From assembly GCF_026241755.1 (NCBI RefSeq), contig NZ_JAPJDA010000001.1:1-64000 (forward strand): a DNA stretch of 64,000 bases, read 5' to 3'. This DNA is from Salinimicrobium profundisediminis. Its GTDB lineage: Bacteria; Bacteroidota; Bacteroidia; Flavobacteriales; Flavobacteriaceae. Numbering within the stretch: the first letter of the stretch is position 1; each line of letters begins with the position of its first letter. Both the position numbers and the translations under genes were made by a program. Positions 37,223 through 46,700 of the stretch are shown here, in pieces. The notes under the pieces were generated by a model that was not told where the DNA came from, made no database searches, and saw nothing but the letters and a program-made list of their open reading frames with translations.

Positions 37223-37342
37223 TTTTGGTTTGGTTGGCAGGGCTTTTTTAGGGCCCTTTCCTTTACGACGACGTTGAAGGTACTTTGTTACCAATAAATA
37301 TTAAAAAGTATATTTATTCGTATTACATTTAAAGTGATAAAT

Positions 37343-38803
37343 ATGGATAAAACTATGAAATCTACCCCGAAATTACTCCTCTCTTTTTTCATGTTGCTGT
37401 TTATCTATGGTTGCCATGACGACCGTGATGACGTACTTGTAGCTTCGGGCGAGCTGGAAATTAAAAATTTTATTTGGCGGGCTATGAACGATATGTATCT
37501 CTACAAGGCCGATGTTCCCAATCTTGCCGATGATCGTTTTGCCAACCAGGAAGAACTCAACGAATTCCTTAGAAGTTATTCATCTCCCGAAGAACTTTTT
37601 TATGAAGGCCTGGTAGCCGATTTTGATGATTTCAGTTTTTTGGTGCAGGATTACAGGGCTTTGGAAAAGTTGCTTGACGGCATCAATACTTCAAACGGAA
37701 TGCAGTATGGCGTGGTGGCCTATCCTCCAGGCTCCCAAAACGTAGTGGGTTATGTGCGGTATGTTTTGCCCAATACTTCAGCTGAAGAGCAGGGAGTAAA
37801 GAGAGGAGATTTGTTCAACAGCATAGATGGCGTAGAACTCAACCGGGAAAATTATTCAAGACTGCTGCAACAGCAAAGTTACACTATAGGTATGGCAGAG
37901 TTCACTGAAGGTGAGATCATCGCTACAGGAGAGACCATAAACCTGCAAAAAGAAGAGTATACCACCAATCCTGTTTATATCGCCACAACCTTTGAAACAA
38001 CAAATGCTACGGTAGGCTATCTCATGTACAACGGATTTACAGGCACTTTTGATGATGTTTTAAACAATACTTTTGCATACTTCAAAGCCGAAGGAGTTCA
38101 GGAATTGATTGTAGACCTGCGATATAATGGCGGGGGTTCGGTTGAGACTGCCAGCGATTTGGCCAGTATGATCACGGGACAGTTCACCGGGGAGATCTTC
38201 AGCAAAGAACAGTGGAATGAAGAATACCAGAACCTATTAGAATCTACCGCCCCCGAAAGTCTGGTCAATCTTTTTGACGACAAAATAAGAACAGGAGCAG
38301 CCATAAACAGCCTCGGACTGGGAAAGGTATATTTCATTACTACTTTACGGACTGCCTCGGCCAGCGAGCTGGTAATCAACGGACTTAAGCCCTACATCGA
38401 TGTGATTCAGGTAGGGGAAAACACTACCGGAAAATTTCAGGCTTCCACTACGCTATACGATTCGCCAAACTTCCGTAGAAACGGAGCAAATACTGGGCAT
38501 TCTTACGCGGTACAGCCCCTTATTTATAAGAGCCTGAACGTCAATAATGTCACCGATTATTCCGAAGGGCTTTCTCCCGATGTAGAAATAAAAGAAGATT
38601 TTACAGATCTCGGAGTATTGGGAGATCCTAACGAGCCCTTACTGGCGGCGGTGTTAAGCCTCATAGAAGGACGCACTTCCGAAATGAGTGTCAAAAATGG
38701 CATTTTTGAGGTGTTAGGAGAAAGCAGTAATTACGACCTACTTCACCAAATGATGTATACCGAAGATCCTGATTTGCCAGGCACCTCGAAAGTGGAATTT
38801 TAA
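37343..38803 (+). CDS. S41-family peptidase lipoprotein (C-terminal processing protease type), copy 1
   Basis: 486 residues from ATG 37343; ATG 37355 gives an equally good signal (MKSTPKLLLSFFMLLFIYGC). Lipobox Cys about 24, then an acidic linker. The N-terminal S41 helical region has NFIWRAMNDMYLYKADVPNL, and a PDZ-like domain lies about 125-205 (VKRGDLFNSIDGVELN). The protease core has VDLRYNGGGSVETASDLASM, Ser in TASASELVINGL and Lys in GENTTGKFQAS, the expected Ser-Lys dyad. The palindrome core is embedded in the coding sequence at 38692-38708 and encodes VKNGIFEV. It is divergent from the sigma operon. Confidence 0.88.
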   Translation: MDKTMKSTPKLLLSFFMLLFIYGCHDDRDDVLVASGELEIKNFIWRAMNDMYLYKADVPNLADDRFANQEELNEFLRSYSSPEELFYEGLVADFDDFSFLVQDYRALEKLLDGINTSNGMQYGVVAYPPGSQNVVGYVRYVLPNTSAEEQGVKRGDLFNSIDGVELNRENYSRLLQQQSYTIGMAEFTEGEIIATGETINLQKEEYTTNPVYIATTFETTNATVGYLMYNGFTGTFDDVLNNTFAYFKAEGVQELIVDLRYNGGGSVETASDLASMITGQFTGEIFSKEQWNEEYQNLLESTAPESLVNLFDDKIRTGAAINSLGLGKVYFITTLRTASASELVINGLKPYIDVIQVGENTTGKFQASTTLYDSPNFRRNGANTGHSYAVQPLIYKSLNVNNVTDYSEGLSPDVEIKEDFTDLGVLGDPNEPLLAAVLSLIEGRTSEMSVKNGIFEVLGESSNYDLLHQMMYTEDPDLPGTSKVEF

Positions 38804-38875
38804 CATATATTTTGCATTTTTCTTTGGTACTAATCGCGATTATCTTAGTTTTAGCCACCACTAAATGTATTTTAC

Positions 38876-40330
38876 ATGAAGAGATTATTTATGCCGCTAT
38901 TCCTGCTGGGAATATTTTTCACCTCCTGCTCCAAAGATGACGATGTACAGGAAAAGGAACCCGAAATAACTCCCGATGCACGGGATTACACTGTTGACCT
39001 ATTCATACATCGCGCAATGGCCGATTGGTACCTTTATGAAGCCGAAGTGCCCGAATTACAGGAAGGTTATTTCAAAAACCTTCAGGAGAAAAAAGACTTT
39101 TTTGCAGATTTTGACGAACCTGAAGAAACCTATGAAAATTTAAAAGCCTCACATGACAGGTTCAGTTTTATGTGGGATGATTATACCGAGCTGGAAAAAT
39201 TGCTTTACAGCGGGATAGAAAAAACTACAGGGATGGTTTTTGCCTACGGAACTATTGGAGGTGGAAGCGATGCTTTTATAATTACAAGATATGTAGTGCC
39301 CGGTTCTCCTGCAGACCAGGCAGGGATCAAACGCGGGGATATTTTTCTTGAAGTTAACGGACAGCAACTGACTGTTGGTAATTTAGGCCAGCTTTTGTCT
39401 CAGGACAGCTTTAGCGTTTCTTATGCCGAAATTAATAACAATACGATTGGTTTAAGCGGAAAAACAGCACAGCTTACAAGTGTAGAACTGGCTGAAAATC
39501 CGGTGCACGTAGCCAAGGTTATAAAACATAACGACCTAAATGTTGGGTACCTTATGTACAACGGATTTACTTCAGATTTTGATCCGAAACTCAACGAGGC
39601 TTTTGGTTTCTTTAAAGCTGAAGGCGTTGATGAACTTGTAATTGACCTTAGGTACAACGGAGGAGGATCGGTTGAAACGGCCTCCGACCTTTCATCAATG
39701 ATCACCGGTGGATTTAAAGGCGAGTTACTTGCCGAATTGATTATGAATGAGAAATGGAAAGCGATCTATGAAGCAGAAGCTCCCGAATATGTTAAATTCA
39801 GGTTCAATGACAAGATACATACCGAGGAAGACATTAACAGCCTGAACCTGGCGAGGGTTTATATAATTGCCACCCGTGGCTCTGCTTCTGCCAGTGAACT
39901 TTTGATCAATGGATTGGATCCTTACATCGAGGTGGTTCATATTGGAGATAATACTGCAGGAAAATACCAGAGTTCAAGAACCCTGTACGACTCAAGTCAT
40001 ATCATGTTCGCCAAAGAGAACGTTAACCCTTCACATAAATATGCCATCCAACCGCTCATTTCAAAAGTTGCAAACTCAGTAGGAAAAAGCGATTACGACA
40101 ACGGTTTAACTCCCGACATCAAAGCATCAGAAGGCCTTAATTATCTTCCCCTTGGAGACCCAGAGGAACCCTTATTAAAGGTTGCTTTAAATGCCATTTC
40201 AGGAGAGACTGGCGGAGAGGCGGCAACTGCTGCACAAAAAAGAATGCTCAATGACAGGTTTAAGATTGAAGGAGAGAGCGATATGTTTCAGCCTACCTAC
40301 CAAAGAATGTACACCAATGAGTTGCCTTAA
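38876..40330 (+). CDS. S41-family peptidase lipoprotein, copy 2
   Basis: 484 residues, a tandem paralog of the preceding gene with the same layout. Lipobox FFTSCSKDD (C18), then FIHRAMADWYLYEAEVPEL. A PDZ-like stretch follows (IKRGDIFLEVNGQQL), then the core IDLRYNGGGSVETASDLSSM, catalytic Ser in GSASASELLING and Lys in GDNTAGKYQSS. Near the C-terminus it has MLNDRFKIEGESD where copy 1 has the palindrome-encoded stretch. The gene pair probably arose by duplication and works on envelope or surface proteins. A strong terminator follows at 30 bases. Confidence 0.88.
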   Translation: MKRLFMPLFLLGIFFTSCSKDDDVQEKEPEITPDARDYTVDLFIHRAMADWYLYEAEVPELQEGYFKNLQEKKDFFADFDEPEETYENLKASHDRFSFMWDDYTELEKLLYSGIEKTTGMVFAYGTIGGGSDAFIITRYVVPGSPADQAGIKRGDIFLEVNGQQLTVGNLGQLLSQDSFSVSYAEINNNTIGLSGKTAQLTSVELAENPVHVAKVIKHNDLNVGYLMYNGFTSDFDPKLNEAFGFFKAEGVDELVIDLRYNGGGSVETASDLSSMITGGFKGELLAELIMNEKWKAIYEAEAPEYVKFRFNDKIHTEEDINSLNLARVYIIATRGSASASELLINGLDPYIEVVHIGDNTAGKYQSSRTLYDSSHIMFAKENVNPSHKYAIQPLISKVANSVGKSDYDNGLTPDIKASEGLNYLPLGDPEEPLLKVALNAISGETGGEAATAAQKRMLNDRFKIEGESDMFQPTYQRMYTNELP

Positions 40331-40408: not shown

Positions 40409-41458
40409 TTAGTCATTGAAATAAAATCCGTTAGGCCCCACTCCAACATTAATTTTCTTTACAAACTCACCGGCAGTGGTATACACCTCAATAAACCCGT
40501 TTGAAGCAAAATCACCTGCATCACCAATGTAAATCCTGCCGTCTTCTACTTCAAAACCATACATTTTTCCCCATTGAGACTCACTGGTGTACTCAATAAT
40601 AGGAGCAGAAGGACTGGTTGTAGCCCCAACTTCCATAGCATAAACTGCGTTGTCTAAAGTAAAATAAACTGTACCGTCTTCAACCTCTAAATTAGACGCT
40701 CCCTGTAGATCATCAGTTAAAACAACTTCCGATACTTTTTGCCCTGTTGTAAGATCAATAGTTTCAATGCTTCCTGTGCCCAGCACGTAGAGATAATCAT
40801 TCTCGATCTCCATATCTGTAAGTCCGTCATTTACCTGGATGGTCTTTACTACGTCTTTGGTAGCTGAATTTATTACAGTTATAGTATTACCCACCCCATA
40901 AGAAGAATTCTGAACATAAACGAAATCATCTTCAGCTATAATTTTTGAAGCAGGACCGTCAATTTCTATGGTACCGGTAACCTCTAAAGTTTTAAGGTCT
41001 ACCAATGCAATATAATCATCATTAGGTGTATCTATTACTTCAGCCAAATTTGTTACGTAAGCTGTTTCACCAACTACTGCTGCATAATAAGGAACTTTAA
41101 GACCACTGTCTACCTTTCCAACAACTTCAAAGGTGTTACGGTCTACCGCGGTGATAAGATTTGAACCATTAGAAATTATGTAAGCATTGTCTTCGTGGAA
41201 AAACATTGATTGTAGAAACATTCCCAGGTCGTCATTATTGTTTGCCTGGTAAATTTCGTTCTCTACAGTTTCCATATCATCACTAATATATGTTACTGTA
41301 CCCGCAGCCTGTGCGCCTTCATTAAGCACAAAAAGACCTTCGGAATAAACTCCGACTTCTGGTTCGGGTTGTGGATCTACATTGTCATCATCGCTGCTAC
41401 ACGAGTTGAAAAATAATCCTCCAAGGAGTCCAAATAAAAATAGTTTGCTAAGCTTCAT
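40409..41458 (-). CDS. Surface lipoprotein beta-propeller, DUF5074/YncE-like, probable BtuG-type cobalamin-binding protein
   Basis: 349 residues. Signal ends FFNSCSSDDDN (C20); an acidic stretch after the Cys resembles the lipoprotein export signal of Bacteroidota. The mature part is a series of about 40-residue beta repeats (GLFVLNEGAQAAGTVTYI, AVDRNTFEVVGKVDSG, ALVDLKTLEVTGTIEIDG, VINSATKDVVKTIQVNDG, IDLTTGQKVSEVVL), a YncE-like seven-bladed propeller. It lies four bases after btuB behind a B12 riboswitch. In Bacteroides, propeller lipoprotein BtuG caps BtuB and captures cobalamin with very high affinity; that role is inferred here from fold and position. Confidence 0.75.
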   Translation of the reverse strand: MKLSKLFLFGLLGGLFFNSCSSDDDNVDPQPEPEVGVYSEGLFVLNEGAQAAGTVTYISDDMETVENEIYQANNNDDLGMFLQSMFFHEDNAYIISNGSNLITAVDRNTFEVVGKVDSGLKVPYYAAVVGETAYVTNLAEVIDTPNDDYIALVDLKTLEVTGTIEIDGPASKIIAEDDFVYVQNSSYGVGNTITVINSATKDVVKTIQVNDGLTDMEIENDYLYVLGTGSIETIDLTTGQKVSEVVLTDDLQGASNLEVEDGTVYFTLDNAVYAMEVGATTSPSAPIIEYTSESQWGKMYGFEVEDGRIYIGDAGDFASNGFIEVYTTAGEFVKKINVGVGPNGFYFND

Positions 41459-41461
41459 AAA

Positions 41462-43300
41462 TTAAAAATTAAGATTTAAATAAATATTGAAATTGACGCC
41501 AGGCATCCAGCGGTCTTCTACGTTTTGATAAGCCTCATCAAAAATATTTCTCACCCGAGCTCCCAACCTGTAGGACTTTTCCTGGCCAAAAGCATAAGAA
41601 GTAGAAATATTTGAAATTGTGTAGGCGTCAAGATTGTAATTTGGATCATTGTCCGATCGTGTAAATACCTCTCCATTAAAGAGCAACTGGTAATCAAAAT
41701 TCCACCTGCCATAAGCATAGCCGGCGCTGCCCGTTACTTTGTGATAAGGGACATAGATCAATTGCTTGCTGGTCTTTTGATTTTCAGATACCGTGTAAGA
41801 GTATATTCCTTTAAGCCTTAAAAATCCGTTACCAATATGCTTCTCCCAACCTAAAAGACCTTCCAATCCGTAAGAGCGTACTTCATCTTCGTTCTGCGGC
41901 CGCCAAATTCCGCCACTTGCCGGGAGCCACCTTATCATATCTTTTATATCTATATAGTAAGCAGTAAGATCCAGATCAAAATTTTGCCATCTAAAACTGT
42001 TACCTATTTCTCCCTGGAGCGAAGTTTCTGGTTTTAAATCGGGATTTCCCCCGGGATTCCAGTAAAGGTCGTTGTAAGTAGGGATCTTAAAATTTTTGGA
42101 GGCATTCAGCTTCAGTGCGTAGAAGGATGAAAACTCGTATTTTGCTCCTGCGGAAAAGAGCACGGGGCTCTCATAATTATTTGTCAGTTCCTTCCGAAGC
42201 CCTGCCTCATACGAGAATCTTTGAGTTGCGTGATGCTTCAGAAGTAATGCTGCGGAAAAAATATTCCTGCTGTTGTCATCAATTCCGGAGCCCTCGCCAC
42301 TGGTGTGGGTATTTGAAAGCACCGAAGCTAACTTAACATCTTTAAAACCAGTGTATTCAAGGTCATTGCGGGCTATAAAAGTCTCTGCCTGCCCAAACGA
42401 ATACTTGTCGGAAGACAGATTCTCATAATACCTGAAGCTTTCATCTAAAAATGCCAGTTTGGTAGTAGATTTAAAATGCGAGATCCCTGTCTCCCACTCC
42501 AGTAAATTCCTGCTGTTAATGTCCCTGTATTTTGTTGGAGTTTCTGAAGGTCTTATGAGTGAAAAGTGCCTGCCTGCATGAGAAAAACTACTAAAAGCCC
42601 GTAAATAATTTTTAGGAGCGATCTTATATGCCAGCCCCACATCAAGCGTATTATTGAAAAATTGCCCATTCAGGTTTTCACCATTGTCGGGATATTCATA
42701 ATCATTGTCTGAACTGTTTCTTGCTCCCGCTATAGATAAACTCCACAGCTCGCCCGAAGCTTCCGTTTTATATCTCGCATCTACAGTGTTATAGCTGCCA
42801 TACTGAAGAAAAAGTTCATTTTTAAAGCCCTGGTTAAAGTGAAGCCGATTATTGAGGTGAACAGTACCGCCAATGGCGCCCGTACCATAAACCACACTTC
42901 CGCCACCGCCGCGTACAGTAATCTCGTCTATGCCTACTGTACTAATTATATTGAAGTTGACCTGCCCGTTAAATTGAGAATTAATATTGATCCCGTTCCA
43001 CAAAACTGCGGTTTGCGACGCTGTGGTGCCGCGGAAAGAAGGCGAAGAAACCATCCCCAGTCCATTCTCCTTAAAATAAATGGGAGAGTTGAACTCCAAG
43101 ACCTCTCCTAGCGCAGAACGGCTGAGTTTACTAACAGAATCATCAATTTTGATAAGGGTTTGGCCGGTTGAAAACTCTCGAAGTTTAACATCGCTTACAA
43201 ATACCTCTTCGAGATAATTGATAGAGTCCAGTTGGGCAAAAGAGGCTGTCCAATTTAGCAGGGCCAGGAATAGAAGGTAGAAAGTGCTTTTTTTCATCAT
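41462..43300 (-). CDS. btuB: TonB-dependent outer membrane vitamin B12 receptor (BtuB-type)
   Basis: 612 residues, as short as E. coli BtuB. Signal peptide to about 22 (NWTASFAQ), then the TonB-box region and the plug: LGEVLEFNSPIYFKENGLGMVSSPSFRGTTASQTAVLWNGININ and GIDEITVRGGGGSVVYGTGAIGGTVHL. A 22-strand-type barrel follows and ends FNIYLNLNF with terminal Phe. The specificity call rests on the cobalamin riboswitch in its leader and the btuF/btuC/btuD genes alongside. MM at the start allows either ATG. Confidence 0.88.
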   Translation of the reverse strand: MMKKSTFYLLFLALLNWTASFAQLDSINYLEEVFVSDVKLREFSTGQTLIKIDDSVSKLSRSALGEVLEFNSPIYFKENGLGMVSSPSFRGTTASQTAVLWNGININSQFNGQVNFNIISTVGIDEITVRGGGGSVVYGTGAIGGTVHLNNRLHFNQGFKNELFLQYGSYNTVDARYKTEASGELWSLSIAGARNSSDNDYEYPDNGENLNGQFFNNTLDVGLAYKIAPKNYLRAFSSFSHAGRHFSLIRPSETPTKYRDINSRNLLEWETGISHFKSTTKLAFLDESFRYYENLSSDKYSFGQAETFIARNDLEYTGFKDVKLASVLSNTHTSGEGSGIDDNSRNIFSAALLLKHHATQRFSYEAGLRKELTNNYESPVLFSAGAKYEFSSFYALKLNASKNFKIPTYNDLYWNPGGNPDLKPETSLQGEIGNSFRWQNFDLDLTAYYIDIKDMIRWLPASGGIWRPQNEDEVRSYGLEGLLGWEKHIGNGFLRLKGIYSYTVSENQKTSKQLIYVPYHKVTGSAGYAYGRWNFDYQLLFNGEVFTRSDNDPNYNLDAYTISNISTSYAFGQEKSYRLGARVRNIFDEAYQNVEDRWMPGVNFNIYLNLNF

Positions 43301-43345
43301 CCGCAGGCTTTTTTCCCGAAAGCCAAAGGTTTTTAATTAATGAAA

Positions 43346-43595
43346 AATGGCAGGTCTCCTGGCTCGCGTCCTTTTTGTTAACCTTCCCATCCTAAAATCA
43401 GGACAGTGGTATGAAGTGTACAAAAGGCATTCCGACGCATCGGAACTAAGCTTACAGTTGCGGGAACAGCTCAGGCTTGTTTGAAGTTAGAGTTTAGAAG
43501 TTAGAAATACGAAGTAATTCTTGCTTCAACTCTCTTCGGAAGTTAGTGTCAAATTTCGTACTTCGTACTTCTAACTTCCCCTGATTCCCTTTTAA
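43346..43595 (-). ncRNA. Cobalamin riboswitch, apparently interrupted in loop L4
   Basis: Read on the minus strand, the 5' half is AAAAGGGAATCAGG (about 43593-43580). The 3' half resumes at CCTGAGCTGTTCCCGCAACTG (43475-43455), followed by the B12-box-like ACCACTGTCC, GGGAAGG, and GCCAGGAGACCTGCC (ending 43349). GGGAA/TTCCC and TCAGG/CCTGA are the P3 and P4 stems. Between them, where about 7-10 loop bases with GGTGAAA-like sequence are usual, there are 104 bases of palindromic sequence. The btuB start is about 45 bases after the 3' end. The element should repress btuB and the BtuG-like gene when B12 is plentiful, if it still folds. Confidence 0.85.
43476..43579. repeat. Inverted-repeat insertion inside the cobalamin riboswitch
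   Basis: Arms GAAGTTAGAAATACGAAGTA (43497-43516) and its complement with one mismatch (43559-43578) enclose about 42 bases that themselves contain GAAGTTAG and CTTCAACTC words. The left side carries 21 further bases of GAAGTTAGAGTTTAG style. No open reading frame and no clear target-site duplication is present. The composition resembles the simple-word hairpin at 20.1 kb. Confidence 0.75.
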
Positions 43596-43716
43596 TCGAT
43601 GTCTTTACTTTCTGAATTTTTTTCAGAAAACAATCGAACCAAAATTCAAAGCGAAAGTAAACATTTTAGGGCTTTTTACTTCAAAAATTTTAAATAATCT
43701 TACTTTTGAAGTGCCA

Positions 43717-44862
43717 ATGAAAAATACCCTCTACACATACAGCCTGTTACTTCTTATCATCTGCTTTGGATGTAAATCTGACAAAAAGGAAAAAGCCCCG
43801 CTCTTATCAAAGCAGGGAAAAGAAGTCGAAATACAATATGCCTCGGGTCTCAAAATCACCGATTTTGGAGATCATAAGATCATTACTGTAGAAAACCCGT
43901 GGCCCAATGCCGACAGGACCTATAGATACCTGCTGGCAGAAGAAGGAGCGACCGTACCACAGGATGTAGAATTTGATCAACGGATTCAAATTCCGGTAAA
44001 AAACATAGTGGTTACTTCCACAACCCATATTCCGGCGCTTGAGGTACTAAATTCCGAAGAACTGCTCGTGGGCTTTCCCGGTCTGGATTATATTTCTTCT
44101 GAAAAAACCCGCAAGCGCATTGATGCTGGCAAAATCAAGGAAATAGGTAAGAACGAAGCCCTTAATACCGAAAGCCTGCTTAACCTCCAGCCCGATGTAG
44201 TCATTGGTTTTTCGGTAGATGGCAGCAACAAGAGCCTTGACCTGCTCCAAAAAACCGGAATCCCGGTGGTGTTCAACGCCGACTGGACAGAGCATACCCC
44301 TTTAGGAAAAGCCGAATGGATCAAGTTCTTTGGCGCCTTTCTGGGAAAAATGAATGAAGCAAATGCCTTTTTTGAAGAGGTAGAAGAAGAGTATCTCAGC
44401 GCCAAAGAACTGGCCAAAAAGGCCAAAAACAAACCCGATGTGGTTGCCGGTGCCATGTACCAGGACCAGTGGTACCTGCCCGCGGGTAACTCCTGGCAGG
44501 CAATTTTTATAGAAGATGCCCATGCCAATTACCTTTTTAAAGAGACAGAAGGCACAGGCAGCCTTTCCCTTTCTTTTGAAAATGTACTAACACAGGCCGC
44601 ACATGCCGATTTTTGGATGGGGCCCGGCCAGTTCACAGCTTATACCCAAATGCTACAGGCGTCTCCCCACTATGCAAGGTTTGAAGCTTTTGAGAACAGG
44701 AATATCTATACTTTTGCCAGTGAAAAAGGGAGTACCGGCGGGGTGATTTTCTATGAACTCGCTCCTTTGCGGCCCGATTTGGTTTTGAAAGACATGATCT
44801 CTGTTTTTCACCCCCAGCTGCTCCCCAACTATACCTCCACTTTTTATAAACCCCTGGAATAG
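43717..44862 (+). CDS. btuF: Cobalamin ABC transporter substrate-binding lipoprotein (BtuF-type)
   Basis: 381 residues from ATG 43717. Lipobox LLIICFGC (C19). The TroA/BtuF-like two-lobe fold includes VVTSTTHIPALEVLNSEELLVGF, LLNLQPDVVIGFSVDGSN, TGIPVVFNADWTEHTPLGKAEWIKFFGAFLG and a central long helix. It would shuttle B12 from the outer membrane to BtuCD; siderophores are an alternative substrate, but the riboswitch-bearing btuB next door argues for B12. TACTTTTG (43701-43708) just before the start resembles a -7 box without a matching -33 TTG. Confidence 0.82.
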   Translation: MKNTLYTYSLLLLIICFGCKSDKKEKAPLLSKQGKEVEIQYASGLKITDFGDHKIITVENPWPNADRTYRYLLAEEGATVPQDVEFDQRIQIPVKNIVVTSTTHIPALEVLNSEELLVGFPGLDYISSEKTRKRIDAGKIKEIGKNEALNTESLLNLQPDVVIGFSVDGSNKSLDLLQKTGIPVVFNADWTEHTPLGKAEWIKFFGAFLGKMNEANAFFEEVEEEYLSAKELAKKAKNKPDVVAGAMYQDQWYLPAGNSWQAIFIEDAHANYLFKETEGTGSLSLSFENVLTQAAHADFWMGPGQFTAYTQMLQASPHYARFEAFENRNIYTFASEKGSTGGVIFYELAPLRPDLVLKDMISVFHPQLLPNYTSTFYKPLE

Positions 44863-45894
44863 TTGCAAAATACACGTGCCTATACTATCGTTTTATTTCT
44901 CTTGTTGGGAGCAACAGTAGCGGCATGGCTTTTAAATATTAGCCTTGGATCGGTAAATATTCCTTTTGAAGAAGTGCTGGCAGTACTTTTTTCTTCGGAA
45001 GCAGACAGTACCAACTGGCATTACATTATCATGGAATACCGCCTGCCAAAAGCTTTTACCTCCATTTTAGTAGGTTCAGGCCTTGCGGTGAGCGGGATGC
45101 TGATGCAAACGCTTTTCAGGAACCCTTTAGCCGGGCCGTATGTGCTGGGATTGAGCAGCGGCGCCAGCCTGGGCGTAGCTCTTGTACTCATGGGCGCTAC
45201 TATCTTTGGAGGTGTGGCAGGAGGCATTGTTTTCTCCCAATGGGGCGTGGTAATTGCGTCCAGCCTGGGGAGTTTACTCGTGCTTATGGCGGTAATGCTG
45301 GCATCGGTCAAGCTAAAAGATACCATGGCCATTCTCATTATTGGGCTCATGTTTGCGAGCCTAACCTCGGCGGTGGTAAGCGTACTGGCATATTTTAGTC
45401 CGGCAGCACAGCTGCAGCAGTATGTTTTTTGGTCCTACGGAAGTGTGGGTGATCTCAGTTGGAACGAACTGGGTATTCTTAGCCTTTTCTGGTTATTTGG
45501 GGTGATGATTGCCCTCTTCAGCATAAAAAATCTCAACTCCCTGCTTTTAGGAGAGCAATACGCCCGAAGTCTGGGAATGAACATTGGCCGAAACCGTACC
45601 GTGCTCATTATTTCCACCAGTATTCTGGCAGGTAGCATCACAGCCTTTGCCGGGCCGGTAGCCTTTGTGGGCATGGCAGTTCCCCACCTTATTAGACAGG
45701 TAATACCGGTGAACGATCACCGTATTTTATTGCCGGCAGTGATCTTTGGCGGTGCCATTCTCATGTTGCTTTGCGACACCGTGGCGCAAATGCCCGGCAG
45801 CGACTATACTTTACCCATAAATGCAGTAACTTCACTGGTAGGTGCCCCCGTGGTGATTTGGCTCCTGGTAAGAAAAAGAAAATTCCTCTTCTAA
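44863..45894 (+). CDS. btuC: FecCD/BtuC-type ABC transporter permease
   Basis: 343 residues beginning with TTG 44863, directly after the btuF stop TAG; the next in-frame ATG is some 50 codons in and would remove the first helix. Conserved motifs: YRLPKAFTSILVGSGLAVSGMLMQTLFRNPLAGPYVLGLSSGAS, GSITAFAGPVAFVGMAVPHLIRQ and the C-terminal LPINAVTSLVGAPVVIWLLVRKR. About ten membrane helices. It forms the inner-membrane channel of the B12 importer with the ATPase encoded next. Confidence 0.88.
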   Translation: MQNTRAYTIVLFLLLGATVAAWLLNISLGSVNIPFEEVLAVLFSSEADSTNWHYIIMEYRLPKAFTSILVGSGLAVSGMLMQTLFRNPLAGPYVLGLSSGASLGVALVLMGATIFGGVAGGIVFSQWGVVIASSLGSLLVLMAVMLASVKLKDTMAILIIGLMFASLTSAVVSVLAYFSPAAQLQQYVFWSYGSVGDLSWNELGILSLFWLFGVMIALFSIKNLNSLLLGEQYARSLGMNIGRNRTVLIISTSILAGSITAFAGPVAFVGMAVPHLIRQVIPVNDHRILLPAVIFGGAILMLLCDTVAQMPGSDYTLPINAVTSLVGAPVVIWLLVRKRKFLF

Positions 45895-46700
45895 AGATTC
45901 GGAACATAGAAGCAGAAAAGAAACATATCATCCTTAAAACTGAAAACCTTAGCATAGGTTACAGGAAGAAACAACTGGAAAAAGTAGTTGCTTCAGGAAT
46001 TAATATTGAAGTTACCGAAGGTGAACTGGTGGCTGTGATAGGTATAAATGGCGTAGGGAAATCGACATTTTTGAGAACCGTAAGCGGTATTCAGCCAGAG
46101 CTCTCAGGACACATCGAGATCAACGGAGTGAACAGGAAGAATATTTCTTCGGAAAGACTGGCAACCATGATTAGCCTGGTGCTCACCGAGCAGCCCCTGT
46201 CAAAAAACCTTGGCGTAGCCGAACTGGTGGCGCTTGGAAGACAACCTTACACCAACTGGATAGGAAGACTTAGCCCGGGCGACCTAAAAATAGTAAAAAA
46301 CGCACTGGCCCTGGTTAAGATTGAAGAAATACAGGAAAAGAAATGTCATGAGCTAAGTGACGGACAGTTACAAAAAGTGCTTATTTCTCGTGCCCTTGCA
46401 CAGAATACGCCGCTGATGATCCTCGATGAGCCCACTTCCCATCTCGACATGTACCACAAGGCACAGGTACTCAAACTCCTGAAAGACCTAAGCCTGCGCA
46501 CAAGAAAAGCGGTGATCTTTGCAACTCATGAGATTAACCTAGCGCTGCAATTGTGCGATAAGATCATTTTGATGAAGCCCAATGAGGTGGTACAGGGGAA
46601 GCCACAACAGCTTATCCAAAAAGGGCATTTTGAGAGCATCTTTCCATCAGACCTCATTGTTTTTGATACCGCTACCGAATCTTTCAGAATAAAAACCTGA
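45771..46700 (+). CDS. btuD: Cobalamin/iron-type ABC transporter ATP-binding protein (BtuD-type); start uncertain
   Basis: The conserved ATPase begins near HIILKTENLSIGYRKK (about 45927). Walker A is GINGVGKST, the signature LSDGQLQKVLISRALAQ, Walker B LMILDEPTSHLD, and the switch His is in FATHEINLA. The only in-frame ATG is at 45771, inside btuC, which would add about 50 residues of btuC antisense-frame-like sequence and a 124-base overlap. No ATG, GTG or TTG lies between the btuC stop (45894) and the ABC domain. ATT 45897 or ATA 45906 would be needed for a short start. The coordinate given is therefore an upper bound. Confidence 0.75.
   Translation: MRHRGANARQRLYFTHKCSNFTGRCPRGDLAPGKKKKIPLLKIRNIEAEKKHIILKTENLSIGYRKKQLEKVVASGINIEVTEGELVAVIGINGVGKSTFLRTVSGIQPELSGHIEINGVNRKNISSERLATMISLVLTEQPLSKNLGVAELVALGRQPYTNWIGRLSPGDLKIVKNALALVKIEEIQEKKCHELSDGQLQKVLISRALAQNTPLMILDEPTSHLDMYHKAQVLKLLKDLSLRTRKAVIFATHEINLALQLCDKIILMKPNEVVQGKPQQLIQKGHFESIFPSDLIVFDTATESFRIKT

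Follow-up and report, generated by a model that had tools for sequence, protein, structure and literature searches.

In the env8 cobalamin riboswitch, an example of a translational expression platform, the loop L13 carries the ribosome-binding site, and a T-loop contact of L4 organises the junction, according to the part of the source consulted (PMC10907184). A riboswitch has been placed upstream of a TonB-dependent transporter in the consulted section of another study (PMC9723704). Outside riboswitches, the text consulted on the cyanobacterial tRNA-Leu(UAA) intron describes degenerate heptanucleotide repeats that pair into a hairpin in P6b (PMC3488679). Heptanucleotide repeats are also dispersed in bacterial genomes, where they are mostly intergenic and vary between strains (PMC4679880 and PMC4692102, in the portions consulted). 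The locus analysed here can be compared with each of these. With the family RF00174 it shares the P3-P6 core, the B12 box, L5/L13 complementarity, and the btuB gene context, but its L4 is 104 nt long, probably forms a fork, and lacks the T-loop U. Like P6b in the excerpted account of the intron, it places a hairpin of degenerate 7-nt repeats in a peripheral part of a structured RNA, with a repeat number that varies among relatives; what sets it apart are a riboswitch as host, a different clade, and a forked arm. The likeness is one of kind only (PMC3488679). Its heptads resemble the dispersed repeats in their 7-nt unit, mostly intergenic position, and variation between strains, but the parts of the two papers at hand treat intergenic repeats, unlike heptads inside a riboswitch (PMC4679880, PMC4692102), and the word “riboswitch” occurs 0 times in PMC4679880. 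We judge the heptad-built L4 arm to be a variant of a known riboswitch, apparently unreported as far as the literature search reached. We know of no report of a heptad-repeat hairpin arm in a riboswitch, and there was none among the literature matches listed, most subscription journals lying outside the scope of the search.

The window, by which we mean the whole stretch of 64,000 nt from Salinimicrobium profundisediminis, matches the Cobalamin family RF00174 over positions 43658-43332 of the minus strand. The Rfam search, with the insert present, gave 81.7 bits against a cut-off of 31.5, over model positions 1-189 (full length). This is the one place in the window, and the only one in the 4.04-Mb genome, to score above the cut-off; a second place in the genome reached 26.6 bits. 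In the model alignment, GGGAA and the 5' strand of P4 (TCAGG) form GGGAATCAGG at 43580-43589; the 3' strand of P4, P5, and L5 form CCTGAGCTGTTCCCGCAACTG at 43455-43475, with L5 (TTCCCG) at 43466-43461; and the B12 box with its closing strand, AGCCAGGAGACCTGCC, occupies 43349-43364, all on the minus strand. The P4 stem is TCAGG/CCTGA, and the loop between its strands (43579-43476) has 104 nt where 7 are usual. An earlier sequence-only reading had proposed a minus-strand cobalamin riboswitch with extra, repeat-like sequence in L4, an RNA that stays foldable around it, and a 20-bp inverted repeat with one mismatch (43578-43559 with 43516-43497); these points were borne out, and a 7-nt period that it had not described was added. 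Another 24 extra bases, in the P2 loop (43607-43630), contain a CTGAA...TTCAG hairpin, of which varying versions occur in genus members. Several genus genomes contain shorter cobalamin-like matches of 120-132 nt and 27-55 bits (L054-L057, L059, L060, and L003 at G000:C90:128753-128872), the window genome's own short copy falling below the cut-off. Possibly, these are a compact riboswitch class.

Downstream of the aptamer lies the presumed regulated gene, encoding a btuB-like TonB-dependent receptor (41462-43300, minus strand; Pfam PF00593, PF07715). It is adjoined by a gene for a DUF5074 protein (40409-41458, minus strand; PF16819), which we take to be BtuG-like. On the plus strand, divergent genes for a btuF-btuC-btuD-like ABC importer (43711-46700; PF01497, PF01032, PF00005) encode a periplasmic binding protein, a FecCD permease, and an ABC ATPase. 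Beyond the DUF5074 gene, at 37334-40330, are two adjacent similar reading frames, the second an S41 peptidase with a PDZ domain and the first, by eye, resembling a paralogue of it. Ten named btuB relatives at 52-55% identity come from Christiangramia/Gramella (55%), Flavobacterium, Zunongwangia (53%), Xanthomarina, and unclassified Flavobacteriaceae. Just upstream of the btuB start, a P13-like hairpin (43306-43324, minus strand) presents the loop CGGGAA, complementary to the UUCCCG of L5. The CGGG motif of L13 was present in 12/12 genus leaders, with the enclosing hairpin in 10/12 folds. This L5/L13 complementarity resembles the translational platform in the consulted part of PMC10907184; the difference from env8 is that no ribosome-binding site was identified in the window's L13. 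We think it likely, from comparative sequence and folding evidence, that a working cobalamin riboswitch governs translation of btuB here, with a repeat-built, forked peripheral arm in place of the usual L4 loop. The retention of the L5/L13 complementarity and of the B12 box makes it probable that B12 continues to repress btuB.

Each of the 12 genus genomes has a cobalamin riboswitch in the region separating btuB from the divergent btuF. At this locus L4 measures 104-154 nt in 11/12, the exception being G008, with 17 nt of T-loop type; G002 carries two further riboswitches whose L4 is a 7-nt T-loop. A transposon or a recent strain-specific insertion is ruled out by the presence of the long L4 in 11/12 genomes. 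At the genus loci (L002, L043-L052, L058), btuB forms two sets, one 59-86% and the other 46-48% identical to the window's gene, whereas btuF, G008 excepted, is at 64-90%, a pattern that suggests a possible replacement of btuB alleles beside a conserved riboswitch.

How the insert folds is best judged across the genus. In the window, P4 with the insert is more stable than all 200 dinucleotide shuffles (z -4.75), and this, together with the 7-nt period (0/300), rules out a chance palindrome. Two folds are nearly equal in energy: a long hairpin (the minimum, -36.2 kcal/mol) and a fork (-35.4 kcal/mol), 0.8 kcal/mol apart. This gap is too small to decide, and we therefore compared native with swapped partners over the 11 long-L4 genus members. 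In the fork, P4a pairs GGAAGTTAG (43571-43579) with CTAACTTCC (43538-43546), an assignment based on the way in which the 5' end and the middle segment co-vary in these members. P4b pairs GAAGAGAGTTGAAG (43524-43537) with CTTCTAAACTCTAACTTC (43483-43500), and an A-rich linker, AAACAAG (43476-43482), follows before P4, its last three bases being AAG in 11/11 aligned members; all of these are on the minus strand. Using segments that were picked after the folds had been seen, P4a (first 14 nt with the middle) gave -11.0 native and -6.3 swapped, with 0/20000 permutations as good, and P4b (50-75% with the last 40) gave -10.4 and -8.5, with 16/20000. A narrower P4b test (48-64% with the last 25 nt) was not significant (1614/20000; 3457 without near-duplicates). 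The outer eight P4a pairs were standard in 85/88 cells, with both-sided changes at 7/8 pairs; the strands for this count were placed by eye from folds, a placement on which the swap test does not depend. P4a sits flush on P4 in 10/11 members and one base off the P4 end in L048. The fork co-varies in the window's genus, strongly for P4a and more weakly for P4b. The fork is not the free-energy minimum in 5/11 species, and RNAalifold on a MAFFT alignment returned a long-range helix instead of it, with 2/21 pairs changed on both sides, a missing fork that may reflect misaligned repeat registers.

The insert might instead be a single long extension of P4, its 5' arm (43555-43579, containing the inverted repeat) pairing with its 3' arm (43497-43517, minus strand) as a neutral spacer hairpin. 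This is the minimum-energy fold of the window, and one long hairpin is also the fold of two Christiangramia/Gramella inserts, L061 (-22.7, with -12.8 for the fork) and L063 (-24.4, with -15.1 for the fork). In 15 inserts of at least 60 nt from other genera (one near-duplicate of 16 omitted), the long pairing co-evolves (4 and 23/20000 in two versions of the test), as it does in 31 other-genus inserts of 17-59 nt (0/20000); the fork test in those 15 gave 7518/20000. Seven GATT-type inserts alone showed no significant long hairpin (3016 and 2314/20000). However, within the window's genus the long arms pair no better natively than swapped (first 40 with last 55: -23.8 native, -25.9 swapped, 19366/20000; shorter version 13317/20000), while the fork co-evolves. 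Dropping three near-duplicates left this contrast in place, with 2 of 20000 for P4a, 81 for P4b, and 18459 for the long hairpin. The long hairpin is thus ruled out as a fold conserved in the genus, which was one option of the earlier reading, and we regard a plain P4 extension as unlikely. As the long hairpin, not the fork, co-evolves in other genera, the fork looks like a structure derived within the window's genus.

The insert (43476-43579, minus strand) consists of degenerate 7-nt repeats, GAAGTTA/GAAGTAC and their complements. Its lag-7 identity is 0.53, compared with 0.28 in shuffles, and 0/300 shuffles reach it; in each of the 11 long inserts of the genus, at most 1/300 does. We extended this test to 33 inserts of at least 40 nt (11 from the genus, 17 from the family survey, and 5 from named records). 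The lag-7 identity was reached by at most 4/300 dinucleotide shuffles in 25 of them, eight failing, and the best lag in the range 3-15 was 7 or 14 in 27/33. Judged by eye, the window's genus uses the unit GAAGTNN, several other genera use GATTNNN, and L074, an insert that failed the lag-7 test (29/300 shuffles as high), has a CAGT-like unit. These observations suggest that L4 has taken up heptad repeats in several related bacteria. Over the 12 genus genomes, GAAGT heptads were matched 300 times and the reversed pattern 9 times; in this count one tandem tract can contribute several overlapping matches, and copies within L4 form part of the total. G002, despite having the longest L4, had one match, and G008 had none. 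G144, whose L4 is 7 nt, had 86 matches and 0 in the control; genomes of this type, GAAGT-rich yet with a 7-nt L4, indicate that the repeats alone are not enough to lengthen L4. The equivalent GATT count is a weak test: GAAGTTA heptads match even its reversed control (TTAG every 7 nt), and the control scores many hits.

The heptad tracts could also have a different function, for example in binding a protein or small RNA, in which case L4 would be no more than a tolerated landing place. They are dispersed in the window's own genome, and 11/12 inspected places, a subset of those found, lie outside reading frames of at least 90 codons. However, unit sequences differ between genera, yet pairing inside the insert is kept, and we consider this role improbable. 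In other structured RNAs of the genus, no heptad tract was seen by eye in an alignment of RNase P RNA from 11/12 genomes, and TPP riboswitch matches were 93-114 nt long. The RNase P RNA genes (L236-L246) do have variable stem tips with palindromes like CCCGATAGCTATCGGG, in several species and in more than one stem; this sequence is absent from the window with up to 2 mismatches allowed.

Among sampled family genomes at least 80% complete, 130/149 had a riboswitch match, 128 of these outside the genus. The survey set comprised 148 riboswitches from 124 genomes outside the genus, leaving out the weak matches of G020, G061, G098, and G155 and some second matches. An L4 length was obtained for 141/148. 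It was 7 nt in 99, 6-8 nt in 102, 9-16 nt in none, and at least 17 nt in 39 (from 39 genomes), including 12 of at least 60 nt. Relatives with a 7-nt L4 provide the comparison without the insert. A T-loop is expected to have U at base 1 and A at base 5, and both were found in 99/99 of the 7-nt loops. Of the 39 extended loops, 38 begin with U (the exception being L107 of G110), and all 39 have A as their third-last base. Because the key U and A are kept, the other genera appear to have a hairpin inserted within a retained T-loop. The window's riboswitch lacks the L4 T-loop of RF00174 (here UGNAANU), whose contact with L6 is conserved, though an Rfam match does not need it. The first base of its L4 is G, and it is G or A among the 11 long L4s of the genus. 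The T-loop U is also missing from L061-L063 of Christiangramia/Gramella and from L064 and L065 of Zunongwangia.

A rival idea is that the insert disrupts the aptamer, abolishing B12 sensing and freeing btuB from control. It draws on the absence of this U from 11/11 long genus L4s and on the statement, in the part of PMC10907184 consulted, that the T-loop contact organises the junction. A dead switch would, however, be expected to decay, and the genus has conserved the core, the B12 box, L5, and L13 although its inserts have diverged to 58% mean identity; we consider this reading highly improbable. Pairwise identity among the 11 long-L4 members averaged 0.76 in the 5' part, 0.85 in the 3' part, and 0.58 in the insert; the following 60 nt averaged 0.73. 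This suggests that the long L4 is not damage but a folded arm that has been conserved in a switch that still works. Consequently, the sequence-only reading holds for the riboswitch, its L4 site, and the repeat-like, foldable character of the insert, and gives way on two points: the long hairpin as the fold of the genus, and an interruption or disabled sensing. Related genomes carry the same long L4 as their normal variant, an outcome that the sequence-only reading had itself named as telling against an interruption, with an aptamer better conserved than the insert and L5/L13 kept.

The history and mechanism that we infer for the repeat-built forked arm would begin with heptad repeats of the genome-dispersed kind entering L4 in an ancestor. 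The units would then have diverged by gain, loss, and mutation, with selection retaining two local hairpins: P4a, presumably stacked flush on P4, and P4b, followed by the A-rich linker. Binding of B12 at the P3-P6 junction would bring L5 (UUCCCG) and L13 (CGGGAA) together beside the btuB start, hindering translation. The fork would extend P4, and the missing T-loop contact would be dispensable or replaced, perhaps by the linker. A more ambitious proposal, to which we give somewhat less than even odds, is that a three-way junction (P4/P4a/P4b) derived from repeats has taken the place of the L4 T-loop in this genus, with the linker AAACAAG contacting P6/L6 in its stead, and that these riboswitches form a separate structural subclass, heptads having moved into L4 recurrently across the family.

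The L4 variants form a natural series, from a 7-nt T-loop, to a T-loop with a short hairpin, to a T-loop with a long heptad hairpin, and finally to a probable fork that lacks the T-loop U. Such a series lets one ask how a riboswitch replaces a tertiary contact. Beyond the cyanobacterial introns described in the consulted part of PMC3488679, the one published case of this among the texts consulted, short repeats may supply the material for a new arm of a structured RNA.
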